A stretch of 64,000 bases of DNA from Allocoleopsis franciscana PCC 7113. GTDB taxonomy: Bacteria; Cyanobacteriota; Cyanobacteriia; Cyanobacteriales; Coleofasciculaceae. Shown here one piece after another: positions 1 to 19,385 of this stretch (positions within the stretch are counted from its first letter, which is position 1; each line of letters starts with the position of its first letter). The notes beneath the pieces were generated by a model, which saw nothing but the letters and a program-made list of their open reading frames with translations, did not search any database and had not been told where the DNA came from. Location: assembly GCF_000317515.1 (NCBI RefSeq), contig NC_019738.1, positions 3,498,001 to 3,562,000 on the forward strand, in the 5' to 3' direction. A program made the translations under genes and the position numbers.

Positions 1-759
1 ACGTTTTTGGGTACAGAATTACGCGACTTGACCCAACTCGATTCGATTATTACTGTTGTTGATGCCGAAACCTTTACGCCCGATCACTTCGATAGTGAAG
101 CCGCCTTCAAGCAGATTGCCTACGGAGATATCACGATTTTGAACAAAACCGATCTAGCAGATCCAGATCAGATTCAGAACCTGGAGGCTTACATTCGCAC
201 CGTCAAAGAATGTGCCAGAATTCTTCATAGCCAGCATGGAAAGGTTCCACTACCGTTGATTCTGGATGTAGGTTACAACAATCCGGAAGCCTATGCTGAT
301 TTAGTTCAGGAAGAGATTGAGCAATCTCAGCACGATCGCGACCATCATTCGCACGATCATCATGAAGATCACACCCATCATCCCCATGAACACCATCATC
401 ACCATTCGCACGATCATCATGAAGATCACACCCATCATCCCCATGAACACCATCATCACCATTCCGATCATCTAGATAATGATGGATTTGTGTCGATCGC
501 CTTTGAGAGCGATCGCCCTTTTGATGTCCACAAGTTTGAATCGTTCCTGCAAGAACAATTGCCCCAGGAAGTCTTCCGGGCAAAAGGAATCCTCTGGTTT
601 GCTGACAGCGAGTTGCGCCATATCTTTCAACTGAGTGGTCCGCGCTTTGACATTCAGGCAGAAGAGTGGCGGACTTCACCCAGTAATCAACTTGTGTTTA
701 TTGGGCGCAATCTGGATGCAGAGAACCTGCGGCAAAACCTGAAGCATTGTCTTGCCTAA
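1..759 (+). CDS. COG0523 (CobW/ZNG1-like) GTPase, 5' end outside window
   Basis: C-terminal 252 codons of a COG0523 GTPase, a family of GTP-driven metallochaperones for zinc or other metals. The frame is open from base 1, so the P-loop and CxCC motif lie upstream of the window. Seen here are the NKTD guanine-specificity motif, a His-rich linker (about residues 110-152) and the CobW C-terminal domain with the AKGILWF signature. The linker holds an exact 57-bp tandem duplication. The next genes, folE, a second COG0523 gene and hisI, encode zinc enzymes or their helpers, which points to a zinc-starvation role. The exact client protein cannot be told from sequence. Confidence 0.9.
   Translation, partial: TFLGTELRDLTQLDSIITVVDAETFTPDHFDSEAAFKQIAYGDITILNKTDLADPDQIQNLEAYIRTVKECARILHSQHGKVPLPLILDVGYNNPEAYADLVQEEIEQSQHDRDHHSHDHHEDHTHHPHEHHHHHSHDHHEDHTHHPHEHHHHHSDHLDNDGFVSIAFESDRPFDVHKFESFLQEQLPQEVFRAKGILWFADSELRHIFQLSGPRFDIQAEEWRTSPSNQLVFIGRNLDAENLRQNLKHCLA
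346..459 (+). repeat. 57-bp exact tandem duplication coding a His-rich linker
   Basis: Two perfect copies (346-402 and 403-459), each coding 19 residues rich in His with Asp/Glu. The lack of any difference between the copies suggests a recent duplication or selection for more metal-binding histidines. Confidence 0.95.
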
Positions 760-860
760 TCGGAGTCTTTCAGTAGCTTTGCCGTCTGCTGGAGGTAGAG
801 CCATGCATACTCTGTGTCTCTACACCATACGGCTGGTTGTCATCTTACTTTAATTCACTC

Positions 861-1499
861 ATGACATTATCTATTTCACCGGACGATATCCGCAAGCAAA
901 CCATTAGCACTCAAGCCAAGTCTCCCGTTTCTGAAGAAGAAATGCGGCAAGCGGTTCGCACATTGCTATTGGGCATGGGTGAAGACCCCGATCGCGAAGG
1001 GCTTCGTGATACCCCCAAACGAGTAGTCAAAGCGCTCAAATTCTTAACCTCTGGCTACCACCAATCCCTAGATGAGTTGCTCAATGGGGCTGTTTTCCAT
1101 GAAGATGCCAACGAAATGGTATTAGTGCGCGACATTGATTTGTTTAGTTCCTGTGAGCATCACATTCTACCGATTTTGGGACGTGCTCATGTAGCTTATA
1201 TTCCCAATGGGAAAGTGATTGGCTTATCCAAAATTGCCCGAATTTGTGAAATGTATGCCCGTCGCTTGCAAGTACAGGAACGACTCACTGCACAAATTGC
1301 CGATGCTATTCAAGGATTGCTTAAACCGCAAGGGGTTGCCGTAGTCGTTGAAGCTACTCATATGTGTATGGTGATGCGGGGCGTGCAAAAACCCGGTTCT
1401 TGGACAGTGACAAGTTCGATGCAAGGCGTATTTGCCGACGATGCCAAAACCCGTCAGGAATTTATGGATTTGATTCGTCACAGACCATCCTTCCACTAA
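861..1499 (+). CDS. folE: GTP cyclohydrolase I (zinc-dependent, type IA)
   Basis: Converts GTP to dihydroneopterin triphosphate, the first step of folate/pterin synthesis. The 212-residue protein covers the whole FolE domain. Zinc ligands are visible: Cys98 and His101 in SSCEHH, and Cys169 in THMCM. The ATG at 861 is preferred; an in-frame TTG at 837 would add eight unconserved residues. It lies between two COG0523 GTPase genes and is followed by a terminator, so it probably ends the first transcription unit. Cyanobacteria are known to place an extra folE in Zur-controlled clusters; this copy keeps its zinc ligands rather than being the metal-flexible FolE2 type. Confidence 0.93.
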
Positions 1500-1516
1500 T
1501 CTCTTTCCTCACAAGC

Positions 1517-1555
1517 GAGGCAGTGGTTTTCTAGTCCACCATTGCCTCTTTTTTT
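1517..1555 (+). terminator. Rho-independent terminator after folE
   Basis: An 11-bp stem (1517-1527 with 1538-1548, one G-T pair) is followed by seven T. It lies 17 bases after the folE stop and before the next start codon, so the second COG0523 gene probably has its own promoter. Confidence 0.85.
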
Positions 1556-1586
1556 CAGTTCAATTGCTGAGTTCCGAGCTGAATTT

Positions 1587-2561
1587 ATGTTAGATACTCT
1601 TGCCACTTCATCTGATAAACTACCCGTAACTATCATTACAGGCTTTCTCGGCAGTGGTAAAACAACATTGTTGAATTACATCCTGCAAAATTTTGACAAC
1701 TATAAAGTTGCTGTTTTAGTCAATGAGTTTGGCGATATCAACATAGACAGTCAGTTCTTGATTGGTGTTGAAGAAGACATGATCGAACTGACGAATGGCT
1801 GTATCTGCTGTACAATTAACGACAATCTGACAGAGGCAGTTTATCGAGTATTAGAACGACGCGATCGGATTGACTATCTGATTGTTGAAACCACAGGTGT
1901 GGCTGACCCGTTACCGATTGCGCTGACCTTTTTAGGAAAAGACTTGCGAGACCTAACTCAGTTGGATGCAATTTTAACGCTTGTGGATGCAGAAACATTT
2001 ATATCTGAAGCATTAAACAGTGAAGCGGCAAATCGGCAACTCATGTATGGAGACATGATTTTGCTCAATAAAATTGATTTGGTTGCCGAGGCTGATCTCA
2101 ACACCATAGAAACTCATGCTCGTGCTATTAAACAGGGAGCAAAAATTCTGCGATGTGAGTATGGTAGAGTTCCACTATCGCTAATTTTAGATGTTAATTT
2201 TTCTGAGTCAGGTTCCTCTGAGCAAGTGCTGAGTGCTCCCCAGTCAGGAGCATCAAATCATTTGGCAAACGATGGGTTTATGTCGGTGTCGTTTCAGAGC
2301 GATCGCCCGCTTGCCATGAAAAAATTTCAACAGTTCCTCGACTACCGACTGCCCGATAATGTGTTTCGAGCAAAGGGTGTTCTTTGGTTTGCCGAAAGCC
2401 CAAAACGTCACTTATTTCAACTGAGTGGCAAGCGATTCACCATTGATGACAGTGAGTGGACAAAAACTCCCAAAAATCAACTCGTGTTGATTGGACGTAA
2501 GCTTGACCCGCTTTTTTTGCAACAAACGCTGAATAACTGTCTAACTCGCCAACAGGTATGA
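1587..2561 (+). CDS. COG0523 GTPase (putative zinc metallochaperone)
   Basis: Complete 324-residue COG0523 protein. The Walker A motif GFLGSGKTT is at residues 19-27, the metal-binding GCICC motif at 71-75, the NKID motif follows, and the CobW C-terminal domain has AKGVLWF. Unlike the copy at the window start, its linker is not His-rich. The ATG at 1587 is chosen because the longer frame starts inside the terminator of folE. Its stop overlaps the hisI start by 4 bp (ATGA), implying translational coupling. COG0523 members coupled to zinc-enzyme paralogues are thought to deliver zinc to clients when zinc is scarce; HisI is an obvious candidate client. Confidence 0.9.
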
Positions 2562-2959
2562 ACCAGACTATGCTGTGGATAGAGCAATTAAAATTTAACG
2601 AGAGGGGACTGATTCCGGCGATCGCCCAGGACTATCAAGACAATACCGTTTTGATGATGGCTTGGATGAACCGCGAATCGATTCAGCGAACCTTAGAAAC
2701 AGGAGAAGCTCATTACTGGAGCCGTTCGCGTGCAGAACTGTGGCATAAAGGTGCAACTTCTGGACACATTCAAAAAGTCAAAGCGTTTTATTACGATTGT
2801 GATGCCGATACACTTCTATTGAAAATTGAGCAGGTGGGTAATGTTGCCTGCCATACAGGGGCAAGAAGCTGTTTCTTTAATTCAGTTTCACTTCCAACGA
2901 TTGAGTTCAGCGGATTTTGCGAGCAGAAGAAGACTTGGAAACTTAACCGAAACTTGTGA
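2558..2959 (+). CDS. hisI: Phosphoribosyl-AMP cyclohydrolase
   Basis: Third step of histidine biosynthesis: opens the purine ring of phosphoribosyl-AMP. The 133-residue protein lacks the HisE part, as expected for a stand-alone HisI. Mg ligands Asp80, Asp82 and Asp84 and zinc ligands Cys81, Cys98 and Cys105 ([11 protein letters not shown]) are all present. It overlaps the COG0523 gene by 4 bp. The context suggests a zinc-stress paralogue; a housekeeping his gene is expected elsewhere in the genome but cannot be checked here. Confidence 0.92.
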
Positions 2960-3029
2960 ATCCGCCCACTAAGTTCCATTGCAACGATTTGTCATACTTC
3001 CGTGTTAACTCATTCAGCTAACTTCTTTC

Positions 3030-6000
3030 TTACTCTACCTCTTCACTCCCGCTCTCCGCTGTATCCTCGATCTCGTCGGTTTCATCCTCTTCAGAGCTTG
3101 ATGCACTACCTAAAATTCGCTGGCGATCGCTTGGCTCGGTAATCCCATACAAATCCAACACCTTCTCGTCAATTTCTGCATCGATCTGAGCAACTTCATC
3201 GAGCAGAGTTTGAATCTCGGTGCGACGTTGCTGTTCAGCGGTAAAAAAGGTGTTGAGATCAGGGGCTTCATAGGGCAGAGTCACCTGATTTTTAATCTCA
3301 TCCCAGGTTTTGCCTTGCCATTGGGGACGTTTTAAGTAGCCGAGGAGATAACGACGAATGTTGTCATCTTCAATGACAAGCCAAAGTTTGTTATGGCGTA
3401 ATACAACACTGGTAGGATAGCGATCGGGTGTATAGACATTGCTGCTTATCGAAACTTGCAAATCACAGCGATCGGGAATGGTAAATAACCCTGCGGCTTT
3501 CGCATCAAACAAAGTTAATGTTGAAAAGTTGGGATTTCCTTGTTGAACTTCGGCTAAAAGGCGATTGTAGGGAATCTCAATTAGTGTATTGCCATCCCGT
3601 TGTTTACGAATGACATAACCCTGTTCTCGAAATTCATTGAGTTGAGCGTTTTTGGAGAGAATGCGATCGACTTTCTCAACTAAATCTGCTTGAGTTTCAG
3701 CATCAGCAGGATAGATAGGTAGTTGTCGAAAATAAGCAGGATTGATCGTTACTTGATCATTTCTTCTTCGATACCAAAAATTTAAGAGAGATGAGTTTAA
3801 GAGAGCTAAAATATATTTCAAATTGTAACTTGGATCGGAAGCAATAATTACGTTATAGTTCTCCCTTACATAAAAGTCTTGATTATCATAGGCAGCAACT
3901 AAACGACGTTTTAATGCTCGATTGCGGAATCTTATAACAATTATTTTTGGTTGCTCAAAGTACCTTGATTCACGAGCACGCCATAGCCAATTTCCATAAT
4001 GGATATAGTTCTTTAAACTACCCCAACGTAAAGAGTAACGTCCAATAGAACTATTGCTATCAAGTAAAGGTTTCCAATCTGGATCACTTGGTGGAATATT
4101 ACGCCGATTTCTAATATGGTTGCTTGTTCTTCTTTGTTCTTTTCCCTTGTAAGGAATAATTCCTTGATTACTTTCTGTTACATCTTCTAATTTCAACACT
4201 CTTGTACTAGCCCCATTCCTATTAACAGAGATACGGCAAGCATCTTCGATTAACTGCATTAGTGAGTCATAACGAATATCGATTTCCCATCTTTGATTGC
4301 TTATCCATCGAGATTGTTCTTGGACAATAATTTCATCCCAATCCCTAGCTATCAGCTTATCGAGAGTATCGCGCAGTTCGAGGATATAAATCTGAGGTTG
4401 TTGTTCTATACGTCTCTGTTCATCACTATCCTTTGTTATAAATATCAATACACAGTCAACATTAGCGTCCGACCATATTCCTTGTGGTAAGTCTACTATT
4501 TGCTCAATACGTCCTGCATCTAATAACTCCTTGCGTAAAGTGGCAGTATTCGTACCCATTAAATAAGTATTCGGTGTAATGAAACCAAGCTTGCCTCCAA
4601 TTCCTAAAAGCTCAATCCCAAGCTTGAGAAAGAAAACATAAGTGTCAGGTTGACCAAAGAATACGTCTGAGTAATCCGATCTCAGCACAACCTTATATTC
4701 ATCACTTAAACTTGCACCATAAGGTGGATTAGCTACGACAAAAGCAAAACCATTGGAATAGGGAGTGTTGGGCGATCGACTTTTAATTTGATCCACCTGA
4801 TCGCTTTCTTCTGCAATCAACGTATTAAACATTAGAGAACGGTAGGTTCCCGTCGGTCGCGCCAGAGCATCGACATTGTAAATATGGAAGCGTTGAATTT
4901 TGGGGCGTTGCCCCTTGTCATGTGCCAGCTTGACCAGATCTAAGACCTGAATCAGCAAATTGACTTCGGATAAGTAACAGGCAAACGGATTGAGATCGAA
5001 CCCATAAAGGTTGTTTTGCACACGATCCAGCACCGATGCCGGATCGTCAATTTGGTTAGCATTGCCTTTATAGGTTTCGACTAATCGTTTTGCCGCTGCC
5101 ACCAAAAACGAACCGCTTCCACAAGCCGGATCAATCAGGCGTTTGTTAGCTCCAATAATGCCTGCACCAGTCCGATAGCCCACCTCATCCAAAATATAAT
5201 TGACGATTTCTGGAGGGGTGTAATATTGTCCCTTCTCCTTCTTCTCCTTGCGGTTGACATAGGTGCTGTAAACGGTTCCAACAATATCCGAATCAACCCC
5301 AGCAAAGTTGAAGCGACTGAGTTGGTGCAGTGTCATCACCAACTGTTGTTGATCCAACAAAAACCAGTTAAATAACTCTCGTCCTGTAAAAAAGTGGGCG
5401 TAGATGTTTTGGGCATTGTTGTATGCCATATCTAACAACGGGCTGTAGGGATTGCCTGTCGCAAACACCCAGTAACGTTCGATATTTTCTTGCCAATTCT
5501 TAACTCCACCATCTGACACAAACCGATGGGGAAAAACGCCTTTATCCTCACAGACTCGAATCAACAACAGCCGAATGAAAACAACATACGCTGCTTGCAA
5601 AGCAAATTCATCCTGTCGTTGAGCTTCCTCTAATCCTCCCAACATGGTTTCCTGCACCAAAGCAGTCCAAACCGTGTAGTCATCATGCACTCGAATGTCT
5701 ATCTGATAGGTCTGCCGGAGAGTGGACTGTCGCTGATGCCACGTAAACACCTTCTCAACGTAGGGCTTGAGAGCATCATTGAGTGGCGTGTATCCTCCCT
5801 CTAACGTTGATGGTGCCCTGGGTGGTCTTGCCTGGTTCGCATGTTTCTGCTGAAATGCCTGAGTCAAAATTGCCAGAATTTCAGTAAATAGCTCTTTGGG
5901 GCTGATGTAAGCTCTGGCATCCTGTTCCAATCGTAAGAAGATTGCTTCGATCGTGGCTCGATCATCAGAACTCAAATCAACCAAGCTTTGAATCTGATTC

Positions 6001-6872
6001 AGGCTTGTTAAAACCCGCTCTCGCAATCGCTGAATTTCTTGAGTTGCCGTCTCTACGGCATCATCAGTAATGCGGTTTGCCTTATCCTGATACTCCGCAT
6101 AACGAGTTAAATGGTTCGCCAGCAATCGTCTCGCATTGCGCTGAAGTTCCAAAACAAGCGACTGCAACGCTTCCACCAATATAGGTTCGTTGCCGCTCTC
6201 ATCTCCTAAAGGCAATGCCTGCCGTTGCCATGCTTCCTCATCCAGTGCCAGATCTGCTTCTAATCGTTGCAGACTGGTGAAAGCTTCTTTACGAAATAGA
6301 TCAAATAAATCATGGAGTGCCTGGTTTATTCCATCTGATAAGGTCGGTGCTCCTCCCTGATTCCATTCCTGAATTGCTGTTGAAATATCAAGATCAACAA
6401 GGCGTTGAGGGTTATCAGGATCATCAAATTTCCATGCCGTTAACTGCTTACCATTCAGCAACCAGCCCAACCGCACACCCCTCATATAGCCTCTAAGTTG
6501 AGAGAGATGGCTATTGGGATCACTTAAATCAAGAGTTAGTGCCAGGGATGTACTCTTGTCCTCCACGATGAAGCACGTCCCATATACGGGATCAGTGGGA
6601 GCAAAGTCAGGACGGTCGCCCAAATGTTGCTGGTTATAAACCCGCTCCCCAGCCTCAAAGCCCAGTAGACCTAAAAGGGGACTGGCGATCGCTGTATCAA
6701 CAATCGATGCCTCGTCTCCACTTCGTTGAGCATCCGAGCGATTCAGATAACTCAGAAAATCAGCACCACGAAAACTTCTTTGGGTGAAAATGCCAAAGAA
6801 TGCAGTCAAAAATTCGTCAAAGGTTGTTGGATGAGTCATAGCCTGTCGATTATAACCAGGCATCGCAAACAC
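3030..6872 (-). CDS. Type IIG restriction-modification enzyme (Eco57I-like)
   Basis: A 1280-residue single-chain restriction endonuclease plus adenine methyltransferase. Near the N-terminus is a PD-(D/E)xK-like motif (Asp89 in RPDF, Glu104 and Lys106 in VEDKS). The methyltransferase core shows DPACGSGSF (SAM binding, about residue 580) and NPPYG (catalytic, about 716). A target-recognition region follows, and the C-terminus is acidic. The start could also be the Met 12 residues in (MTHPTT). No partner gene is next to it, as expected for type IIG. It interrupts the zinc island on the opposite strand, so it is probably a separate acquisition; its recognition site cannot be predicted. Confidence 0.88.
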   Translation of the reverse strand: MFAMPGYNRQAMTHPTTFDEFLTAFFGIFTQRSFRGADFLSYLNRSDAQRSGDEASIVDTAIASPLLGLLGFEAGERVYNQQHLGDRPDFAPTDPVYGTCFIVEDKSTSLALTLDLSDPNSHLSQLRGYMRGVRLGWLLNGKQLTAWKFDDPDNPQRLVDLDISTAIQEWNQGGAPTLSDGINQALHDLFDLFRKEAFTSLQRLEADLALDEEAWQRQALPLGDESGNEPILVEALQSLVLELQRNARRLLANHLTRYAEYQDKANRITDDAVETATQEIQRLRERVLTSLNQIQSLVDLSSDDRATIEAIFLRLEQDARAYISPKELFTEILAILTQAFQQKHANQARPPRAPSTLEGGYTPLNDALKPYVEKVFTWHQRQSTLRQTYQIDIRVHDDYTVWTALVQETMLGGLEEAQRQDEFALQAAYVVFIRLLLIRVCEDKGVFPHRFVSDGGVKNWQENIERYWVFATGNPYSPLLDMAYNNAQNIYAHFFTGRELFNWFLLDQQQLVMTLHQLSRFNFAGVDSDIVGTVYSTYVNRKEKKEKGQYYTPPEIVNYILDEVGYRTGAGIIGANKRLIDPACGSGSFLVAAAKRLVETYKGNANQIDDPASVLDRVQNNLYGFDLNPFACYLSEVNLLIQVLDLVKLAHDKGQRPKIQRFHIYNVDALARPTGTYRSLMFNTLIAEESDQVDQIKSRSPNTPYSNGFAFVVANPPYGASLSDEYKVVLRSDYSDVFFGQPDTYVFFLKLGIELLGIGGKLGFITPNTYLMGTNTATLRKELLDAGRIEQIVDLPQGIWSDANVDCVLIFITKDSDEQRRIEQQPQIYILELRDTLDKLIARDWDEIIVQEQSRWISNQRWEIDIRYDSLMQLIEDACRISVNRNGASTRVLKLEDVTESNQGIIPYKGKEQRRTSNHIRNRRNIPPSDPDWKPLLDSNSSIGRYSLRWGSLKNYIHYGNWLWRARESRYFEQPKIIVIRFRNRALKRRLVAAYDNQDFYVRENYNVIIASDPSYNLKYILALLNSSLLNFWYRRRNDQVTINPAYFRQLPIYPADAETQADLVEKVDRILSKNAQLNEFREQGYVIRKQRDGNTLIEIPYNRLLAEVQQGNPNFSTLTLFDAKAAGLFTIPDRCDLQVSISSNVYTPDRYPTSVVLRHNKLWLVIEDDNIRRYLLGYLKRPQWQGKTWDEIKNQVTLPYEAPDLNTFFTAEQQRRTEIQTLLDEVAQIDAEIDEKVLDLYGITEPSDRQRILGSASSSEEDETDEIEDTAESGSEEVE

Positions 6873-7114
6873 GCATCACAAGGAAAATAATTTTTTAGGG
6901 GTTTCCAGTCCCGCGCTGGCAATCAGTCCCTTTCTGTTAAATCTTCATCAAATTTTAAGATCAGTATATGATCGGGCATCCTACCTATAACTTAACGACT
7001 ATGCCCCCACCGAAGACCTGAGGCAGCATAACAAGGTGATGGAAGGATAAGATAATTAATTCTTTCCTTCTTTACGCCTTCACTTCTACTTTTCTCCTCC
7101 ACCGCTTTACTGCT

Positions 7115-8062
7115 TCACTTCTCCAAAGGCTGTTGAATCACTAAACCACTACCTCGCTGTCGAGTCCCAGGATTGATGCTAAACAGACGCACATATTGAT
7201 GTGGATAACGTTGTAGAAGTTGTGCTACTGCGGCGATCGCCTCCTCTTCCTGCGTCACTTTAATCACGCCACAATCTGACCAGGAATTTGCTCGAAATCG
7301 TCGTGTATCCGCCTGTTCCACCCCAATATAAAACTTCTGGCTCAACACATCTCGAATCCAGGCGATCGCTTGAGCATCGAAGCGCGAGGATGGGCGATGT
7401 CCATTGCTAGAACCAGGCTGAACGGTTGGGGGTCCGTTTGGTTCATTGCGAAGGGTGGCGATGCAAACCTCATCTTCGGCACAGAGATAGCCCTGACGCA
7501 GTTTTTGATTAATGCTCACTACATGACGGGCAAACTCTGAATCTACTTCTTGCACATTGGGTAAATGATCGGCTTGTTGGGGGTTGGTAATGATTGAGCC
7601 AGATGCGATATATTTGCCCGCCGGAATTTCTACATTCTCGATTAGTGCATGGGACATAACGATACAACCATCCCCAATACGAGCGTTAAATACAGTTGAA
7701 CGGAAGCCAATAAAGCAACCGTTTCCCACGTAAGCAGGGCCGTGAATTAAAGCCATGTGCGTAATCGAAGCGTTATCGCTAATCCACACGGAGTAAAGCT
7801 GTCCATCATCCCCGATGACTCGTCCCTGTTCCAATCCGTGAATCACCGCTCCATCTTGAATGTTCACATTCGTACCAATATAAAACGGCATTCCTTCGTC
7901 GGCTCGAATCGAGACACCGGGAGCAATGTGAACCTGCTCTCCAATCCGCACATCCCCAATCACGTTGGTCAGAGGGTGGATATAGACGGTGGCATCTATG
8001 GTTGGCTCAGCGAGTTGTTGTGACCAGGGGGTTGGTGGGGCAGGGATGTTGTACATAGTCAT
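7115..8062 (-). CDS. Short CcmM-like protein: gamma-carbonic-anhydrase domain plus one RbcS-like module
   Basis: 315 residues. The N-terminal left-handed beta-helix (about 20-200) matches the gamma-carbonic-anhydrase domain of carboxysome CcmM, with candidate zinc histidines in VIHG and [10 protein letters not shown]. The Cys pair CAEDEVC resembles the disulfide that controls CcmM activity. A single RbcS-like (SSUL) module follows (about 230-310); ordinary CcmM has three to five. It is divergent from cysS with a Fur/Zur-type box 6 bp from its start, so it is probably a zinc-responsive CcmM paralogue. Whether it enters carboxysomes or acts as an enzyme is unknown. Confidence 0.85.
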
Positions 8063-8067
8063 GTTAA

Positions 8068-8086
8068 AATGAGAGTGATTATCATT
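8068..8086. promoter_or_regulatory. Zur-type operator between ccmM-like and cysS
   Basis: A 19-bp imperfect palindrome, AATGAGAGTGATTATCATT, matches its reverse complement at 14 of 19 positions and resembles the cyanobacterial Zur box (TGATAATnATTATCA). It lies 6 bp before ccmM-like and about 50 bp before cysS, so one operator could control both directions. Confidence 0.75.
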
Positions 8087-8137
8087 CTAAGCATTACTGG
8101 AATACTTGATCCAAACCTCGACAATCCAAAATTTGCG

Positions 8138-9625: not shown

Positions 9626-9638
9626 AAAGGTAATCCGT

Positions 9639-10709: not shown

Positions 10710-10721
10710 GGAACAATTTTT

Positions 10722-11252
10722 GTGATTACACCTGGTATGACTTCTATCCCCTCGGACTATCCCATATTCGGCACAGAGATTCGATGTCCTCAGTGCCATC
10801 AACCAATTCCAGCCTTGCTACTCACAGACTCTTACATTTGCCCTAAGCATGGAGCTTTTGAAGCCAATCCCAATACAGGGGAGTTAATTCATGTTCAGTC
10901 GGGGCGATGCTGGCATCAATGGGAAGGTCAATGGTATCGTCAGCATATTCATCCCGATACCCTGCGCTTTGAAATCGCTGAGGCACTTGAGCACCTTTAT
11001 CAAAATGGATATCGAGCAACCCAGGTGATCGTTGCTCAACGGTATAAAGAGATGCTTGGCAACAGCTTAGAACATCATGCAGACTGGTTTGAGCAGTTTT
11101 GTTTTGTGAAGCAACGACTGTATGGAGTGCCAGTGGAATTTAGCCCAGACCAACATACAGAACCTCGTTGGAAAATTATGAACTTTGAGTTTCAAACTGA
11201 ACCGGGGAACCCAACGAACTATACTTATCCATTTCTCAAAGCATGGCGTTAA
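10722..11252 (+). CDS. Cyanobacterial conserved protein with CxxC zinc-ribbon-like N-terminus (TIGR02652-like)
   Basis: 176 residues from GTG 10722, or 171 from ATG 10737. A CPQCHQP motif and a later CPKH form a ribbon-like metal site in the first 50 residues; the rest is rich in aromatic residues. I believe it is the cyanobacteria-only family TIGR02652, whose function is unknown. It is the last gene of the cysS-WD40 unit. With the WD40 protein it may form a two-part helper for zinc sensing or protein repair, but this is only inference from position. Confidence 0.65.
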   Translation: MITPGMTSIPSDYPIFGTEIRCPQCHQPIPALLLTDSYICPKHGAFEANPNTGELIHVQSGRCWHQWEGQWYRQHIHPDTLRFEIAEALEHLYQNGYRATQVIVAQRYKEMLGNSLEHHADWFEQFCFVKQRLYGVPVEFSPDQHTEPRWKIMNFEFQTEPGNPTNYTYPFLKAWR

Positions 11253-11315
11253 GAGGGATAAGGTCATAAAGGTTTACCCTTGAATGACGGAGTATGCCAC
11301 TCCCTGGCATATAAA

Positions 11316-11838
11316 TTACCTCGCGATGCATTCTGCTAATTGTTGTCTAATCGCGTCTGCATTCAACGTTCGTCCAATGAAAACGAGTTGGTTACAACTT
11401 GGTAGGTGAGAACGTTCGCTTTTCAAGTCACATCGCTTACCAGTAAGTTGAAACACATGGCGTAACTGACTCCCCTGAAACCAGAGAATGCCCTTTGCTC
11501 GATAAATATTAGGTGATAAATTATCAATAAAAATTTGAAACTTGGACAGATTTAAGGGACGATCGATTTCAAATGAAACTGCCATAAACCCATCATTCTC
11601 CAGATGGTGAGAATGATGCTCGTGATGCTCTTGCTCCAGATGGTGAGCGGCTGATGTAATACTTTGATAGAGGCTAGACTCGTTAAAGTTGACATTCAAA
11701 ATTAGTGGCAATGGCACCTGTGCATATTGTGTTTGGATAACTCTAGCGCCTTGCTTAAAGGAACGAATATAGGCTTCTAGTTCATCAACTTGCTTAGGTG
11801 TCACTAAATCAGTTTTATTTAAGAGAATAATATTTTTG
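11316..11838 (-). pseudogene. COG0523 GTPase, 3' fragment
   Basis: A third COG0523 copy lacking its front. The frame keeps ILLNKTDLV (G4 motif), a short His-rich linker and the C-terminal domain with AKGILWF, but the P-loop and CxCC region are gone. Matching sequence starts near 11838, next to AT-rich DNA with a stop codon in frame. It is closest in layout to the copy at the window start. It is probably a deletion remnant and cannot bind GTP normally. Confidence 0.85.
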
Positions 11839-11993
11839 ATACAAATTTTTCAGGTTATTTAGCAAGTGAAAACCGCCTCGCTGACCTCTATAGTTTCGCT
11901 CATTTGGTAAAAATGAGCAGGATTTACAGACAAATAGAGTGTGTTTAGCCATAGGAGAAGTCTGGACTAAAAGAGCGTAATAAGATAAATAGG

Positions 11994-12593
11994 TTAGTTA
12001 GATAGAAACTTGGTGCTGCCTACACACCTAACCCAAACTAGATGCCCTAGAGCTAAGGAAATCGTCCATATCATCTCCTTAAGAAAGAGATGAGCCAAAA
12101 TCGATAAGGTGATACTATGTTCGTTTCCAAGTAATGTACCAAAAAGCAAAATCAGGCTTTCAAACAAGACGAATCCAGCAATTAAAGCCGTTCCTAGCCA
12201 GAGGAAATGACCGCCCATTCTTTCCCGACTGAACCGAGGCTTGATGGTGGCTAGTAAGGTTACTAGAAGCGTTCCCAACCCCATAATTAAACCCCAAACA
12301 AAAGAATCAGTTGTCTGAGGATAATTGCGGAGGGTGTACCCCCAAATTTGATTGACCAACCAGATGATTGAAATTGCTTTCACTGCCTGTGTCGGCTTCA
12401 GAGTCGTGCCTGCTACAGTCGCAAAGCTGACCAAAGGGGGGTGCGGATAAACTACACTACTGGCACTACCCAGGACAGTGAGCAGAAGAACCCAAAGACG
12501 GTTTTGTGCAACAGTAGACCAAGCCAATTTCCATCCTTTAGGTTTGACTGCGCGTACTGGAGCAAGGGGAGTTTTTGTGTGATTCATGGTCAT
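11994..12593 (-). CDS. Unknown integral membrane protein
   Basis: 199 residues with about five predicted membrane segments (around 30-50, 72-90, 95-115, 128-152 and 162-185) and a basic N-terminus. I do not recognise the family. It starts 22 bp after the FeoB-like stop, so it is the last gene of the thrS-flavoprotein-feoB-like run. Its place suggests an accessory subunit of the FeoB-like transporter; no metal-binding motif is evident. Confidence 0.6.
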   Translation of the reverse strand: MTMNHTKTPLAPVRAVKPKGWKLAWSTVAQNRLWVLLLTVLGSASSVVYPHPPLVSFATVAGTTLKPTQAVKAISIIWLVNQIWGYTLRNYPQTTDSFVWGLIMGLGTLLVTLLATIKPRFSRERMGGHFLWLGTALIAGFVLFESLILLFGTLLGNEHSITLSILAHLFLKEMIWTISLALGHLVWVRCVGSTKFLSN

Positions 12594-12615
12594 CTGCTAT
12601 TGTTTTGCCTCGATA

Positions 12616-14283
12616 CTAGAAGTGGTTGATTGAGTACTCAAATAGGGCGCTGCCCCAAACGAGAAGCAGCGAAAAGCTAACGGCTGCAACAACTTGCTGG
12701 CTCAAAAGCTTTAGAGCAAAGCGCCAAGATACCTCGCGCACAATCGTTAAAAGAGTGACAAGGCAAGGCAGAATTACACCTGCCAGGTAGACTCCAGTGA
12801 GAATCTGCAAGGGGGTCAAAGCCGCCAAAGTATTCGGTTGGGTAAAGAGCAAAATGCCATCTTTGCGAATGGAGGCAAGCACTACGGGTAAAGCGGCTTC
12901 AGCCGGAAGGCGAAACAATCCCATTACAGGACTAAGGACACCAGAGAGGGCAGAAAGAACGCCCAGCCAGTCGAGTAGCGAAGCAATAATTGTAATTCCC
13001 AAGAAGATAGGGATTGCCTGGAGAAAGAATTGAGATAGGGTGCTGCGGGCTTCGCGCCAGATGGCAATCGGGCGGGGCAATTCCAGGAAGCTACGCCCTT
13101 CAACGAGCAACTTATTTAACGGCGATCGCGCTTTTTTGGGTGCTGTCAGTCGAGTGTAAATTAAGGTTGTCACCGTGAGATAGAGCAAATAGGGGACAAC
13201 CAGATAAGGCAGCTTTGCCGCAGCAAACACGCCGAGGGTTGCCCCGAACTGGTAGGAGCAAGCTGAACCAAATGCGATCGCAGAAATACAAGTTCCCCGC
13301 GAACAACTAGAGCAAGCCCTGGTGCTAATTACTGCCGGGACGTTGCAACCGAAACCCATAATCACCCGTACCAAGTCACGGCCACTTAGCCCAAAGGGAA
13401 GCATTAGCGGGTGCATCGCCACTGTGATGCGATCGATCAAGCCACTCGCTTTGTAAGCACCAAGAAACAGAGCGTACAGCACAATCGTGGGGATTGCCCA
13501 GACGAACAGCAACGGCCCCATCGTCACGAGTCCATATCTACCAACAAGAATTTCCCGTAATAAGGACGGCAGCAGGCTAAGTTGCTCCACTAATGGCTTC
13601 ACCAAAGCCTGTACTGGCGGATCGACTAGCGCCGCCAACGTGTTAGCACCCCAGACAGCGATGATGGCAGGCAATAAAAGCAGCAAAATTGCTCCAATCG
13701 GTCCCCAGTAACGATGTTCCAATAACGTTGGTGGTGGCTCAATCCGCCAGTCAATGCGTTCTGGTGTAAACTCTTGGGTAAAGGTTCTGGGAGATGAAAG
13801 AGCCTCTAGAATCTGGACGCGATCGCTCGCACTCAGATGACGGGCATCCACAGGGATGAAACCAATCCCGGAACTCTGGCGGAGACGTTCGAGTACTTGC
13901 ATGGCTTCTGCTTTAGCTCGTACCTTATCCCAAAAGGTAACAGCCACGACTCCCCGCTTGCCTTGAACCAATGGGAGTAACTCCGCTAAATCCTCGTCGA
14001 TATGAGTAGCTTGCACTACAAGCAGCACGGTATCTGTTTCTGGCAAACGGTTCAGCACTACTGCCGTCGTCACGCTATCAGACTGGCGCAAAATCCCAGG
14101 CGTATCGACAAAGGTGCGATCGCCGTCCCGATAGGTTTCACAAGCCACGGTAGTACCCCGAAAATTCGAGCTATAGGCTGGCTTTTGGGTAAGAGAGGCA
14201 ATTAACTGGGATTTGCCAACGCTTTCTTTACCGATCGCAACGATGGCAGTGTGGGTAGAGAGTTGTCCAGTAACTTGGTTCAT
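12616..14283 (-). CDS. FeoB-like metal transporter with reduced G domain
   Basis: 555 residues. A short N-terminal G domain has a P-loop (GKESVGKS, 18-25) and DTPG (60-63), but the NKxD motif is replaced by TFWDK. Then come about eight membrane helices with the Gate/FeoB signature GFGCNVPAVISTRA near residue 310, followed by an unusual cluster (CSSCSRGTC). True FeoB is about 700-800 residues and takes up Fe2+. This shorter form lies in a transcription unit headed by a Zur-type box before thrS, so zinc or another divalent metal is a plausible substrate. No feoA gene is adjacent. Confidence 0.8.
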   Translation of the reverse strand: MNQVTGQLSTHTAIVAIGKESVGKSQLIASLTQKPAYSSNFRGTTVACETYRDGDRTFVDTPGILRQSDSVTTAVVLNRLPETDTVLLVVQATHIDEDLAELLPLVQGKRGVVAVTFWDKVRAKAEAMQVLERLRQSSGIGFIPVDARHLSASDRVQILEALSSPRTFTQEFTPERIDWRIEPPPTLLEHRYWGPIGAILLLLLPAIIAVWGANTLAALVDPPVQALVKPLVEQLSLLPSLLREILVGRYGLVTMGPLLFVWAIPTIVLYALFLGAYKASGLIDRITVAMHPLMLPFGLSGRDLVRVIMGFGCNVPAVISTRACSSCSRGTCISAIAFGSACSYQFGATLGVFAAAKLPYLVVPYLLYLTVTTLIYTRLTAPKKARSPLNKLLVEGRSFLELPRPIAIWREARSTLSQFFLQAIPIFLGITIIASLLDWLGVLSALSGVLSPVMGLFRLPAEAALPVVLASIRKDGILLFTQPNTLAALTPLQILTGVYLAGVILPCLVTLLTIVREVSWRFALKLLSQQVVAAVSFSLLLVWGSALFEYSINHF

Positions 14284-14308
14284 CGCTGTCTATAAAAGAA
14301 CTCAGCCA

Positions 14309-15448
14309 TTAACAAACACAGTCATTGCTACAGCAAGAAAGGTCATCAAGAAATAAACCCTGTTCGCGGTAAACCTGCAAAGGTGAGGGATCTAAACCCA
14401 AACGTTGTGCGATCGCATCAGCCACCACTGCAAACCGCTGCCGGAATTTATAGATAAAACAGAAAATGATATCCTCGTGACGCACAGAAGGTCCAGCAAC
14501 GAATAACCCTGGAGTCCGGGTCGATTCATCGCATTCATTCAGTACAGCATGTCCGTCAGACCAATGAAACAAATGAGCAATGGTACTGAGACTGCCCTTA
14601 AAACCCGTACACAGAATAGGAGGCGTGGGACTCATCCACTGGCGATACTGAATACCCTCATTACCTTGCGCCCCGACGACAACATAACCGTTGTTGTCGC
14701 GCTTGACTCCCACAATGTCAGTATTCCCAATTAGTTCAAGGCGACCTGTAGCATAGACAAACTCCAAGCGCTGTAGTGTGTAAGGAGACAAAGAGATGCT
14801 CGGATCGGGGTTATTGGATGCCCAACTTTTAGCGCGATCGATTACTCCCACTCGTTTTCCCAAAGCAACTAAATTGGTGGCGGCATCCATTCCGCTTTCA
14901 TAACCGCCAATCACAATAAACTCATCCCCCTGCATCTCGTCCCAGGAGCGTACCTGAGTATTATGAATGCACAAATCGGCACCGGGAAAGGGATCGAGGC
15001 GCGGATACTGAAATTCTCCTGCCGCCCAAATGACAAAGCGGCTTTGAACATCGCCTTGGGAAGTTTTGAGGATAAACCCTTTTTCTCCTGGTAGTGTTTC
15101 AATATCGTGAACCTCAATGCCCGTTTTTACCGGAAGCTGAAAATGCTCGACAACCGTTTGTAAATAGAGGGCATACTCCTTACCCGTTAGGTGTTCTCGT
15201 CGAAAAGCTAGAGCTGGGGAGGTATTTAGAGCGATCGCATTCAGGTCGAGTAACCCAAAGCCGTGACTGGGAAACGACGGGGTAATAAATCGCATTTGTG
15301 CGGGCCAGCGATTAAAAGATGCTCCCACTTCATGGCGCTCTAACAGGATAAAATTTTGGAGTCCTAAATCTTTGAGAACGACCCCACAACCGACCCCCGC
15401 CGCACCCGCACCGACAATAACTACATCCAAGATTTGAGAAGAATTCAT
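14309..15448 (-). CDS. FAD/NAD(P)-binding oxidoreductase with Cys-rich tail
   Basis: 379 residues. GAGAAG at 13-18 binds FAD; a second dinucleotide site (VIGGYESGMDAA, about 184) suggests NAD(P)H binding; layout resembles flavin monooxygenases and thioredoxin-reductase-like proteins. The last eight residues, CCSNDCVC, hold five Cys and could bind metal or pass electrons. It sits 40 bp after thrS and 25 bp before feoB-like, in one run on the minus strand, so it probably shares the thrS promoter. A role in reducing a metal or thiol for the transporter is inference. Confidence 0.78.
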   Translation of the reverse strand: MNSSQILDVVIVGAGAAGVGCGVVLKDLGLQNFILLERHEVGASFNRWPAQMRFITPSFPSHGFGLLDLNAIALNTSPALAFRREHLTGKEYALYLQTVVEHFQLPVKTGIEVHDIETLPGEKGFILKTSQGDVQSRFVIWAAGEFQYPRLDPFPGADLCIHNTQVRSWDEMQGDEFIVIGGYESGMDAATNLVALGKRVGVIDRAKSWASNNPDPSISLSPYTLQRLEFVYATGRLELIGNTDIVGVKRDNNGYVVVGAQGNEGIQYRQWMSPTPPILCTGFKGSLSTIAHLFHWSDGHAVLNECDESTRTPGLFVAGPSVRHEDIIFCFIYKFRQRFAVVADAIAQRLGLDPSPLQVYREQGLFLDDLSCCSNDCVC

Positions 15449-15488
15449 TACAGCTATTAACTAGAAGTCTATTCTCCAACTTGACAGG

Positions 15489-17360
15489 TTAAAGCGTCGA
15501 TTTCTCTTCAATCGCTCCTTGCAGACAAGCTTGCAATTCAGCTAAAGTTAGCGTTCCTAACTCTCCCCCCTTCCTTGTCCGCACACTCAGAGTTTGATTT
15601 TCTACTTCCCGTTTACCGACTACAGCAACAACGGGAATTTTCTCTAACTCTGCATTGCGAATTTGCTTGCCCAAACGCTCTCCACTGCGGTCAATCTCAA
15701 CCCGATACCCAGTTTTTTTAAGCGTGGTGGCAACTGATTCTATATACTCTCGTTGGTCATCGCTCACGGGTAACAGACGCACCTGAATGGGGGCTAACCA
15801 CAAGGGGAAATCACCTGCATAATTCTCAATTAAAATCCCAAAAAAGCGTTCCAAAGAGCCAAAAATTGCTCGGTGAATCATAATCGGTTGTTGCCGAGTT
15901 CCATCAGCCGCCACATATTCTAGTTTGAATCGTTCAGGTAAATTGAAATCAACTTGAATGGTCGAACATTGCCACAAACGACCAATGGCATCTCGAATCT
16001 TAAGGTCAATCTTGGGTCCATAGAACGCGCCACCCCCCACATCTTCAATATAATTCCAACCTTTGGCAGTTAAAGCTTGTTTTAAAGCTGTTGTTGCTAA
16101 CTCCCAAACTTCATCGGCGCCAACAGATTTAGCCGGACGAGTGGACAAATTTACTTCATAATCTGTAAAGCCAAAATCTGATAAAATTTGCTCGGTTAGA
16201 TTCAGCACTCCTAAGATTTCATCGGCAATTTGGTTCGGTAAACAGAAGATATGAGCATCATCTTGGGTGAATCCTCTGACGCGCATCAAACCATGCATAA
16301 CTCCCGATCGCTCGTAGCGGTAAACAGTGCCTAATTCAGCAAAGCGCAAGGGAAACTCGCGGTAAGAATGCAGGTCGTGCTTATAGGTTAGAACATGGAA
16401 GGGGCAGTTCATCGGCTTAATTTGATAAGCCACATCTTCAATCTTCATCGAGTCAAACATATTCTCTCGATAAAAATCAAAGTGTCCCGATGTTTTCCAC
16501 AGTTCCAGATTCGCGATATGGGGTGTGTAAAGGAGTTGATAACCCGCTTCTAGGTGAGATTTTTTCCAGTAATCTTCAATAATGTTGCGTATCGCTGCGC
16601 CACGCGGATGCCAAAAAACTAAACCACCGCCAGCATCGTCTTGGATACTAAAGAGTTTGAGGTCTTGACCAATTTTTCTATGGTCGCGCCGCTTGGCTTC
16701 TTCTTTTTGTTGAAGGTAAGCAGAAAGTTGTTCGGGTGTTTCCCAAGCTGTACCATAGATGCGTTGCAACTGAGGTTTGGTTTCATCTCCTCGCCAGTAA
16801 GCACCCGCAACAGTTTCTAAGGCAAAAGCATCGGGATTGATTTCTCCAGTGAAGTTGACGTGAGGACCGGAACACAAATCCCACCAGTAAGCTTCAGGAG
16901 GTATTGTTACTTGTTCAAACAGCGTCGGTTCTGATTGATTAGCATCAATGACACCCTTACCGTGGTCAGGGTTGCCGATAAAGTAGCGGGTAATGGTTTC
17001 TCCGTCAGGGATACTGTCGAGGATTTCCAGCTTGTAGGGTTCCCCTAACTGCTCAATTTCCGCACGAACCTCCTCCCGATCTACAACTTCGCGGATAATC
17101 GGCAAGTTAGCGTTGATAATCTGACGCATTTTGGCTTCAATGCGGCTCAAGTCATCCGGGGTAAAGGGTTGTTGGCGATCGAAGTCGTAGTAAAATCCGG
17201 TGTCTGTGGTGGGGCCAATCGTTACTTTTGTCTGTGGGAGGAGAGTTTGCACTGCCATTGCCAAGATGTGAGCGCAGGTGTGACGAATTCGCTCTAGTTT
17301 TTGCGGGTCATCTTGGCGGAGGCTGTTCTCAGACGGAGATTGAGTTAATTGACTGACCAT
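15489..17360 (-). CDS. thrS: Threonyl-tRNA synthetase (with editing domain, no TGS domain)
   Basis: 623 residues. The N-terminal TGS domain is absent, but the editing domain is present: HTCAH (27-31) and CSGPH. The catalytic core has zinc ligands in MNCPFH, DDAHIF and MIHRA, and an anticodon-binding domain closes the protein. Anabaena has two ThrRS, one of them induced by zinc shortage; this gene's Zur-type box 14 bp before the start fits that role. It heads the minus-strand run leading to the flavoprotein and the FeoB-like gene. Confidence 0.93.
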   Translation of the reverse strand: MVSQLTQSPSENSLRQDDPQKLERIRHTCAHILAMAVQTLLPQTKVTIGPTTDTGFYYDFDRQQPFTPDDLSRIEAKMRQIINANLPIIREVVDREEVRAEIEQLGEPYKLEILDSIPDGETITRYFIGNPDHGKGVIDANQSEPTLFEQVTIPPEAYWWDLCSGPHVNFTGEINPDAFALETVAGAYWRGDETKPQLQRIYGTAWETPEQLSAYLQQKEEAKRRDHRKIGQDLKLFSIQDDAGGGLVFWHPRGAAIRNIIEDYWKKSHLEAGYQLLYTPHIANLELWKTSGHFDFYRENMFDSMKIEDVAYQIKPMNCPFHVLTYKHDLHSYREFPLRFAELGTVYRYERSGVMHGLMRVRGFTQDDAHIFCLPNQIADEILGVLNLTEQILSDFGFTDYEVNLSTRPAKSVGADEVWELATTALKQALTAKGWNYIEDVGGGAFYGPKIDLKIRDAIGRLWQCSTIQVDFNLPERFKLEYVAADGTRQQPIMIHRAIFGSLERFFGILIENYAGDFPLWLAPIQVRLLPVSDDQREYIESVATTLKKTGYRVEIDRSGERLGKQIRNAELEKIPVVAVVGKREVENQTLSVRTRKGGELGTLTLAELQACLQGAIEEKSTL

Positions 17361-17373
17361 AAATCAATATAAA

Positions 17374-17392
17374 AATAATAATCATTCTCATT
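17374..17392. promoter_or_regulatory. Zur-type operator before thrS
   Basis: On the minus strand AATGAGAATGATTATTATT, a near match to the 8068 box (AATGAnAnTnAnTnTCATT with one end mismatch). It lies 14 bp before the thrS start, a position where binding would block transcription. Confidence 0.72.
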
Positions 17393-17468
17393 CTAGGAGA
17401 AAAGGCTAGGTTCAGGCTACATAGAGGGATTCGATCTCCATTAATTCATCCAGGATGTCAATTGACCA

Positions 17469-17868
17469 CTACAAAGAATGGAGTTGTTGCGAACACTCAG
17501 GACACAAACCAAAAAATTCGAGTGTGTGATAGTAGACCTTGAAGGATAGCGACTTACACCAAGTCGCCGCCATGTGGCAGACAGGGCAATCTTCAACAGG
17601 AATCGACTGACCGCAACGAACACAGGTTAAGTAGTGTCGTTGTTCTGCCCTGACTAGGCTGTAGAGAGACTTACCTGAGTTGAGGGTTCTCGCCTGAATC
17701 ACTCCCTCTTTTTGGAGTGCTTTCAATATGCGATAAATCGTTGCTAATCCCAAACTTTGATTTTGATGGCGCAGCTCAATATAGAGTTCTTGAGCGCTGA
17801 TGAAAGCGATCGAGCTGTTTGAGGAGCGTGAGGATTCGCTCCTGACTACTGGCTTGTCGAGCTGGCAT
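17469..17868 (-). pseudogene. zur: Fur-family regulator, probably Zur, with N-terminal frameshift
   Basis: Residues after the break match cyanobacterial Zur: a winged helix (SAQELYIELRHQNQ, then LGLATIYR), a structural zinc site (CVRCGQ and CPEC) and YYHTLEFFGLC. The expected N-terminus (MPARQASSQERILTLLKQLD) starts at ATG 17868 in another frame and meets the main frame at about 17805, at a TTT run, so one extra base appears inserted. The remaining frame could start only at a TTG (17876) with an unrelated first 25 residues. The region CPVCHMAATWCK is also unlike relatives. If real, zinc repression may be lost; a sequencing error is the alternative. Confidence 0.7.
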
Positions 17869-17946
17869 AGAGACAACGCTTGTAAGGGAGTATTCGGTAC
17901 AACTTAAAGTTTCATGACTTGAGCGAACGTTTCCCTCAAGTATTAG

Positions 17947-17963
17947 ATAATGATTATCATTAT
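17947..17963. promoter_or_regulatory. Fur/Zur box, 8-1-8 palindrome
   Basis: ATAATGATTATCATTAT is perfectly palindromic apart from its centre base. It lies 79 bp before the zur start and 54 bp before the hemB remnant on the other strand, so it may once have controlled both. Confidence 0.85.
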
Positions 17964-18016
17964 TGTAACCAAGAAAGTCTCACTACTGCCCATGTCGTCA
18001 TCTAACACCGTTGCTG

Positions 18017-18091
18017 ACGAGCATTAAACGAGCGGGTGCTGACTTGATTCTCACCTACTTTGCCAAGGAGATGGCGTTGATATTGCATTAG
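18017..18091 (+). pseudogene. hemB: hemB (5-aminolevulinate dehydratase) 3' remnant
   Basis: The last 24 codons read TSIKRAGADLILTYFAKE and end at a TAG, matching the well-conserved HemB C-terminus. The roughly 900 bp before it are missing; only the operator region remains upstream. HemB is a zinc enzyme and its gene is part of Zur-linked clusters in other cyanobacteria, so this looks like a deleted zinc-stress hemB copy. Confidence 0.8.
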
Positions 18092-18268
18092 GCAAATTCA
18101 ACACGCTTGAGGGAGATTTCTACAGATTTTTTTGAGGATTAGACTGCGATGCGATCGCTTTCTGATTGCAATAAGGAACTTTCTCAAGAGCAGAGACAAC
18201 GAGTGCTTGGTTTCATCGAAGCTTACTGTAACCTGAATTTGGATAAGTCAATGTAGTTGGCGGGAAAC

Positions 18269-18787
18269 ATGAGACAGCTTACATTACTAATGTGCTTGTT
18301 TCTAACGGTCTTTGCTGTTGGGGTGCGTGCTGAAACTGAAACACCAGAAGAATGGGTAAGGCTGGGACGCCGCGTTCATGGGGGTTTCGGCACCTATGTC
18401 GTGGTGGGGATTCGGATTGGTCTTGATGCGATGAAACGTCTGGAAGCTTCACCACGCGATTTAGATGTAACTTACCAAGAGGGACTGCTCTCCCCTTGTC
18501 CCTGTGTTGTAGATGGCATCATGATTGCCACCGTCTCCACACCCGGACAAAACTCGCTGCGCGTTCTGCCGACAAGACGCGACCGGAACACCTTTGGCGT
18601 TGCGATTATTAAAAATAAGAAAACGGGACAAGCGTTACGTTATACCTTACCCAACTCGGTTCGCTCTCAACTTGATAGTTGGAACCAAAGTTTGACCGAA
18701 CGCCAGCGCTATGACGCAGTAATGAATGCACCTGCTGACTCTCTGTACATCGTGGAACCTTACGATGAACCAGGGAGCAAGTCATAG
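18269..18787 (+). CDS. Exported FmdE-like protein
   Basis: 172 residues from ATG 18269. A signal peptide (about 1-20, ending near VRA) is followed by a domain resembling the FmdE family: VHGGFGTYVVVGIRIGLDAM, then CPCVVDGIMIATVST. FmdE-like domains are small and often metal-binding; the reaction, if any, is unknown. It converges on the pentapeptide gene with one base between the stop codons. Its place beside the zinc cluster suggests a periplasmic metal-related role, which is inference. Confidence 0.6.
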   Translation: MRQLTLLMCLFLTVFAVGVRAETETPEEWVRLGRRVHGGFGTYVVVGIRIGLDAMKRLEASPRDLDVTYQEGLLSPCPCVVDGIMIATVSTPGQNSLRVLPTRRDRNTFGVAIIKNKKTGQALRYTLPNSVRSQLDSWNQSLTERQRYDAVMNAPADSLYIVEPYDEPGSKS

Positions 18788-18788
18788 T

Positions 18789-19385
18789 TTAGGGTCTGTG
18801 CCATCTATCAAATGAACCTTCGCTACCTGGGTTACTCTTCCAGTTAAAATGGGTAAGCTGTAACCGCTCTTTTTCAGTAGCGATAGCGTTGCGCTGCTGC
18901 AAGCAGATCGCATTTCGATTCAAGCGTTCAAAGACTCCTTGCAGCCTAAACCACCAACTGCGCTTGCCAAAAACTGTTCCATCTGGCATTGTTGCGCCAT
19001 TGAGTATTGCTTTTTGGAGGTTGGCTGTTGAGATGTCAGAAGCTCCCATCAGATTGGCGAGACACAAATTGGCTCGTTGAAAGTTGGTAGTATGCAAGAC
19101 AGTCTCGCTCAGGTCAGCCTTGATTAGAATGGCTTGTTGGAAGTTGGCTTGACTCAAACAAGCCTGATTTAAATTAGCCATCAAAAGATTTGAAGAGCTG
19201 AGGTTTGCACCATGCAGATTAGCTTGACTCAGGTCAACATCCATCAAAGATGCCCGACTTAAATCAACCCATCGCAAATCTGCCCCACTCAAGGAAACCC
19301 CTCTTAGGTATATCCCCTGAAGGGAAACTCCACGAAAATACCGTTCTCCCGCTGCGTATTGCCGTAAGAGTTCATCTGCTTTCAT
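18789..19385 (-). CDS. Pentapeptide-repeat protein
   Basis: 198 residues. About 17 A(D/N)Lxx pentapeptides (residues 20-135) predict a right-handed beta-helix. No signal peptide. The C-terminal part is not repetitive and includes an in-frame copy of the GCGATAGC-type dispersed repeat (CLQQRNAIATEKE). Pentapeptide proteins are abundant in cyanobacteria and mostly of unknown function; nothing here narrows it further. Confidence 0.85.
   Translation of the reverse strand: MKADELLRQYAAGERYFRGVSLQGIYLRGVSLSGADLRWVDLSRASLMDVDLSQANLHGANLSSSNLLMANLNQACLSQANFQQAILIKADLSETVLHTTNFQRANLCLANLMGASDISTANLQKAILNGATMPDGTVFGKRSWWFRLQGVFERLNRNAICLQQRNAIATEKERLQLTHFNWKSNPGSEGSFDRWHRP
18877..18912. repeat. Dispersed GCGATAGC-type short repeat
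   Basis: Similar to sequences inside cysS (9211-9247) and hoxE (38385-38447): GCGATAGC or GCGATTGC followed by a palindromic GCGCTGCTGC-like part. Here it is translated as the tail of the pentapeptide protein. Confidence 0.55.

Follow-up and report, generated by a model that had tools for sequence, protein, structure and literature searches.

The 64,000-nucleotide stretch of the Allocoleopsis franciscana PCC 7113 genome analysed here (the window; G000:C1:3498001-3562000, in a genome of 7.97 Mb and 9 contigs) opens within a zinc-starvation island of ~43 kb (C1:3472855-3515959) that is likely to form one low-zinc programme under the regulator Zur, in which zinc import and delivery are combined with back-up enzymes and a peptide for secretion. 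The initial annotation had placed a zinc-starvation island at window positions 1-19385, which is correct in kind but covers only the right half. To the left of the window (C1:3472855-3498000) are intact zur and hemB, znuA, znuC and znuB, together with genes for an OprB/SLH porin, a flavin adenine dinucleotide (FAD) oxidoreductase, a methyltransferase and a small CobW_C protein; beyond those come a lanthipeptide cluster, the second of two porins and a phosphoesterase-like gene. Relative to known systems, the new part is the lanthipeptide cluster, with its putative Zur-type boxes at both the precursor and the synthetase gene.

Distribution of Zur-type boxes

Sites resembling TGATAATNATTATCA, a 7-1-7 palindrome, are concentrated in the island. 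Genome-wide, 68 sites match the pattern with ≤2 mismatches and 10 with ≤1, and seven of these 10 fall within C1:3472855-3515959, an interval that accounts for 0.54% of the genome (binomial P ~2e-14). Boxes left of the window include those at C1:3480495, C1:3488322 and C1:3496893. The surroundings of six housekeeping genes (including hemB; stretches of 4-18 kb) contain zero boxes with ≤1 mismatch and one two-mismatch site, 1.8 kb from housekeeping ccmM. The three boxes that had been proposed in the window are all present, at 8070..8084 between the divergent ccmM-like and cysS genes (two mismatches), at 17376..17390 upstream of thrS (two mismatches) and at 17945..17959 between a broken zur copy and a hemB remnant (one mismatch), where first-order Markov resampling of the window yields 0.4 and 0.1 chance boxes per 64 kb at two mismatches and one, respectively. 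A box with ≤1 mismatch also stands upstream of thrS in three relatives (L158, L184, L186). Elsewhere in the window, an identical two-mismatch box sequence flanks a hydrogenase gene region in opposite orientations (36423-36437 and 56138-56152).

The Zur-type gene beside the third box (17469..17876, reverse strand) is split between two frames and probably inactive: its N-terminal helices are missing in frame, and the matching residues are found just upstream in a different frame, so that the copy looks broken. A Zur-like regulator had been reported here, and the gene is indeed of Zur type, but we reject a functional regulator inside the window on account of the frame split, and the intact zur lies to the left of the window. 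The neighbouring hemB remnant (18008..18088, forward strand) was rightly recognised as such, comprising 27 C-terminal residues, with the intact hemB again left of the window.

Back-up enzymes and their zinc ligands

All of the zinc-enzyme paralogues listed for the window by the initial annotation are present, with Zur-type boxes and COG0523 genes nearby. These are FolE, a second GTP cyclohydrolase I (837..1499, forward strand; zinc ligands C/H/C kept), HisI, a second phosphoribosyl-AMP cyclohydrolase (2558..2959, forward; C/C/C kept), a CcmM-like gamma carbonic anhydrase with one Rubisco-small-subunit-like domain (7115..8062, reverse; three His kept), CysS, a second cysteinyl-tRNA synthetase (8069..9625, forward, with a likely start near 8138; C/C/H/E kept), and ThrS of the Anabaena T2 kind (15489..17360, reverse), which shows both features of T2-type ThrRS, namely retained zinc ligands and an insertion near DxCxGPH, here before DLCSGPH. 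The carbonic anhydrase is named CcmM-like because its score against NCBIfam NF053794, 488.9 bits, lies under the curated cut-off of 550.

For each of the five, the genome contains a single further full copy, at C1:5313394 (FolE), C1:5611775 (HisI), C1:5021950 (CysS), C1:3200647 (ThrS) and C1:4915359 (CcmM), where the genome search, made in this genome only, splits ThrS into two pieces (plus one weaker match) and CcmM into four (plus two weaker). These second copies rule out that the island genes are simply the only ones. The island proteins share 53-66% identity with their own housekeeping copies over global alignment and 75-90% with the island copies of another genome, G134; as they are closer to the latter, the back-up lineages are old. 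Zinc ligands are complete in 5/5 island copies and 5/5 housekeeping copies, which rules out the five window duplicates as zinc-free replacements. The genes present, their duplicates, the ligands and where the boxes lie are all read directly from the DNA.

HemB departs from this pattern. The intact island HemB (DVALDPYSSEGHDG) has Ala/Asp/Asp at the positions where the housekeeping HemB at C1:250391 (DTCLCEYTSHGHCG) has Cys/Cys/Cys; going by the known motif, these are a zinc-free and a zinc type, respectively. Thus, the suggestion that zinc ligands are retained in every duplicate is true of the five enzymes in the window but not of HemB, and the island follows a mixed strategy. Nor are zinc-keeping duplicates unusual, as had been suggested: the T2 ThrRS of Anabaena keeps its zinc ligands and, of the metals tried, zinc alone made it active (Rubio 2015, PMC4787780).

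The same division is largely seen in relatives. Searching 195 genomes of the order for COG0523 gave matches in 71 genomes, 78 matches in all including the own gene, and 42 neighbourhoods were examined, comprising the best 40 of the 77 non-own matches together with L052 and L090 (L149 and L051 are probably one locus, and L149 alone was counted). FolE occurs in nine of the 42 and ThrS in eight, with C/H/C in 9/9 and C/H/H in 8/8, while all 10 HemB proteins, from 10/42 neighbourhoods, are of the zinc-free A/D/D form. Both CcmM-like proteins (2/42) are H/H/H, and CysS is found once intact (C/C/H/E) and once split between two frames (L182). HisI is present in three of the 42, twice as C/C/C and once as D/C/C; in the latter, from a Symploca bin (L052 6760-7065) and beside COG0523 genes, the first zinc Cys is replaced by Asp.

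COG0523 proteins and the question of delivery

Of the three COG0523 genes originally counted in the window, two stand. The first (1..759, forward strand), a 3' part encoding a GTPase with a His-rich loop, is complete once the left flank is included, where it begins at L032 19656; the second (1542..2561, forward) encodes a GTPase with GFLGSGKT and CICC motifs. Both have the cobW GTPase domain, the CobW_C domain and the CxCC motif, whereas the third (11316..11804, reverse) is a C-terminal fragment that lacks the GTPase domain. The His-rich loop of the first protein is encoded by a 57-base unit present in two perfect copies (346-464). The nearest named matches of the second protein are in Symploca metagenome bins (85-91% identity), with a further match of 58 residues in Coleofasciculus sp. 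LEGE 07092, which suggests a Symploca/Coleofasciculus-like cyanobacterium, and a contig scan with this protein returned five loci, including one distant Muribaculaceae match.

From the gene neighbourhood we hypothesize that the COG0523 proteins deliver zinc to particular island enzymes. The COG0523 genes sit in among folE and hisI. A genome of another family, G134 (L150), keeps the block order, with cysS, ccmM-like, hisI, COG0523, folE, COG0523, a box and thrS in one block. In addition, the housekeeping cysS and a COG0523 gene are divergently arranged (L059 8488-11417), in an 18-kb stretch that holds no box with ≤2 mismatches; a cysS-COG0523 pairing of this kind also occurs in L182. In other bacteria, Cupriavidus CobW1 binds FolE_IB2 and ZagA of B. 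subtilis is reported to sustain FolE (PMC10882993). We keep delivery as a hypothesis because the COG0523 protein adjacent to Anabaena ThrRS was proposed as its helper, yet all attempts to find an interaction failed (PMC4787780).

It is conceivable, and only a little short of probable, that the zinc-keeping copies work at low zinc independently of COG0523 delivery, by dosage, by stability or by the mixing of subunits. The Anabaena T2 enzyme fits this, since its zinc affinity is not much higher than, and about equal to, that of T1, it forms pairs with apo-T1, and contact with a chaperone was sought but not found, while its insertion near DxCRGPH (PMC4787780) has a counterpart in the island ThrS. 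What speaks for delivery instead is the interleaving of COG0523 with folE and hisI, in an order kept in G134 and G148, and the reported role of ZagA.

A lanthipeptide cluster with Zur-type boxes

The left part of the island encodes a class II lanthipeptide system. The precursor (L032 2173-2391, reverse strand) scores 73.8 bits against TIGR03898 (cut-off 23.5) and LanM (L032 6911-10312, reverse) scores 1001.6 bits against TIGR03897 (cut-off 304), so that LanM, a precursor with a GG leader and an exporter with a C39-peptidase domain, an ATP-binding cassette (ABC) protein, are all found together, along with HlyD and a 2-oxoglutarate (2OG) oxygenase. Two boxes start 118 and 80 bases ahead of where the precursor begins, and one starts 24 bases ahead of the listed LanM start. 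The precursor core, CTPCGNPLHTRIACFADTIATDIA, presents Cys and His residues in the spacing Cx2Cx4Hx4C.

LanM relatives (E ≤ 1e-150) occur in 21/243 genomes of the order and 11/388 of the class, counts that both include the own genome and shared genomes. Among 26 LanM loci read, a script located a box with ≤1 mismatch within 300 bases upstream of the precursor or LanM at eight (G000, G056, G004, G089, G028, G088, G218 and G071), and G234, with a perfect box 39 bases before its LanM match, makes a ninth (9/26); the expectation at intergenic composition is ~0.0002 boxes per 600 bases. G027 has a two-mismatch box only, G154 has no box at the precursor or LanM but adjoins znu genes with a box, and the lanthipeptide genes of G113 and G129 have no box. 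In a LanM tree of 26 rows, which omits the partial G129 and G150 and includes the second LanM of G045 and G090, the eight script-found loci form one clade (100/99), with G154, G027, G113 and G234 unplaced. All 10 box-bearing precursor cores (including G027 and G234) contain His and at least three Cys, compared with His in 14/28 and His plus at least three Cys in 10/28 of the other cores (p = 0.006 and 0.0005), values that are overstated because the sequences are related, with several from one family, and the grouping was made once the loci had been seen; one 28-residue precursor was dropped, and the 28 include a truncated precursor whose core is empty.

These features lead us to propose, tentatively, that a class II lanthipeptide made by some cyanobacteria is a zincophore under Zur control, in which a Cys/His core would be modified by LanM, exported by the C39 ABC transporter with HlyD, perhaps taken up again through the neighbouring OprB porin, and would thereby fetch scarce zinc. 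This is the boldest step of our reading; the Cys residues may be consumed in rings. A somewhat doubtful but real rival is that the peptide serves as an antibiotic or signal, released when the cell is under zinc stress, rather than as a zinc scavenger: Cys thiols consumed in rings would leave zinc binding weaker, the leader of the precursor falls in TIGR03898, the mersacidin/lichenicidin family, and nostolysamide, a cyanobacterial class II lanthipeptide, is antimicrobial (PMC13060382). Set against this are the enrichment of Cys and His in the cores at box loci and the position of the cluster, which in several genomes adjoins porins, znu genes or COG0523. A possible discriminator is uninformative here. 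The lipid II motif of mersacidin is [ST]x[ST]x[ED]C, and it matched zero precursors, box-bearing or not, so it cannot separate the box-bearing from the other precursors.

Zur or another regulator

The failure to detect a COG0523-ThrRS interaction in Anabaena is one of several observations that weigh against a single Zur programme. The boxes at 8070 and 17376 have two mismatches each, and at that threshold the genome count of 68 is less than twice the 39 sites of the reversed-pattern control, making two-mismatch boxes weak evidence alone. Among the best 40 COG0523 neighbourhoods of relatives, 23 contain a box with ≤1 mismatch and 17 do not. The same 7-1-7 palindrome also serves as the Fur box of Bacillus, and the genome has five Fur-family genes, none of which was singled out as Zur by sequence searches of the PDB; Zur is therefore assigned by context. 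We infer Zur control from the box, the gene content and the literature.

Response to iron or several metals through iron Fur boxes, a reading to which the shared palindrome, the five Fur-family genes and the FeoB-like permease in the thrS block would lend themselves, is unlikely given that boxes stand at zur itself, COG0523, hemB and thrS. Indeed, COG0523 genes, hemB2, thrS2 and folE2 are listed Zur targets in Anabaena, and hemB2 and folE2 in Synechococcus PCC 7002 (PMC6103462). That the duplicates were acquired as ordinary spares and play no part in zinc supply or use is very improbable, for although the region is patchy (transposases and a restriction-modification gene are present, one zur copy is broken and one COG0523 gene is a fragment), the boxes cluster, the block is conserved in other families and the ligands are conserved.

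Other genes of the window

An Eco57I/N6-methylase type restriction-modification gene (3030..6872, reverse strand) lies between hisI and the ccmM-like gene; as it is missing from that position in the G134 block, it is probably an insertion. Downstream of cysS are genes for a WD40 protein (9585..10709, forward) and a DUF2396 protein (10722..11252, forward), and a WD40 gene lies ≤200 bases from a COG0523 gene in 10/40 neighbourhoods (L153-L155, L160-L162, L173, L180, L183 and L187). The thrS block also contains the FeoB-like GTPase permease (12616..14283, reverse), possibly a metal importer, flanked by genes for a membrane protein (11994..12593, reverse), with 36-59% matches near thrS in G134 and G148, and a FAD/nicotinamide adenine dinucleotide (NAD) oxidoreductase (14309..15448, reverse), with a relative near thrS in G148. 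Transposase-like genes or pieces lie to the right of the island (20151-21661, 24906-25797 and 29670-31055), with Pfam support for this reading only at 20151-21059. Scans of the window for tRNAs and Rfam families gave no result.

Comparison with known systems

The island resembles the Zur regulon of Anabaena PCC 7120 (thrS2 operon, the COG0523 gene all4722, hemB2 and folE2) in combining COG0523 with second ThrS, HemB and FolE at Zur-type boxes, and in a ThrS that keeps its zinc ligands and has the insertion near DxCxGPH. Unlike the Anabaena regulon, it also comprises HisI, CysS, a CcmM-like protein, the lanthipeptide cluster and, within the island itself, a second gene of Zur type. Paralogues of HisI, gamma carbonic anhydrase, HemB, CysRS and ThrRS were described in Zur/COG0523 clusters by Haas 2009, with four protein families lacking zinc ligands (PMC2770081), and the Cupriavidus operon Op0317f_1 joins cobW1 to FolE_IB2, CysS2 and a carbonic anhydrase (PMC10882993). 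The island shares these associations but differs in that its FolE has C/H/C ligands rather than being a zinc-independent FolE_IB, and in that its carbonic anhydrase is CcmM-like; a literature search of titles and abstract starts, with most subscription journals outside its coverage, returned no Zur-linked CcmM. Taken with Rubio 2015 and PMC6103462, this background means that the initial picture was right in outline but not new in principle.

The lanthipeptide genes, in turn, resemble class II clusters in having LanM and a precursor above curated cut-offs with a C39-peptidase ABC exporter beside them, and are unlike them in the boxes at precursor and synthetase, the Cys/His cores and the adjoining porin. 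They also recall Zur-controlled zincophore clusters, for which a secreted small molecule is expected under zinc starvation (PMC10957091), as predicted here. In contrast to those clusters, the product would be a ribosomal lanthipeptide whose zinc binding is putative, and no TonB receptor is seen in the cluster. The same literature search, with its limited coverage, returned no Zur-linked lanthipeptide.

In the proposed mechanism, a fall in zinc would cause Zur to leave its boxes and the island to be transcribed. Zinc would be imported through znuABC and two SLH/OprB porins and scarce zinc moved by the COG0523 GTPases, while a zinc-free HemB would operate beside zinc-keeping FolE, HisI, CysS, ThrS and CcmM-like copies. 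These zinc-keeping copies may rely on delivery or on being stable when zinc is low, and ThrS may alternatively pair with its housekeeping counterpart. The class II lanthipeptide with its Cys/His core would be made and exported, most simply as a zinc scavenger. Two low-zinc strategies are thus set apart within one island, here and largely in the relatives examined, and the contrast between the HemB swap and the zinc-keeping enzymes makes the question of who gets the scarce zinc directly testable. If the peptide binds zinc, a ribosomal peptide would join the zincophores, and a group of cyanobacterial lanthipeptides would gain a function.

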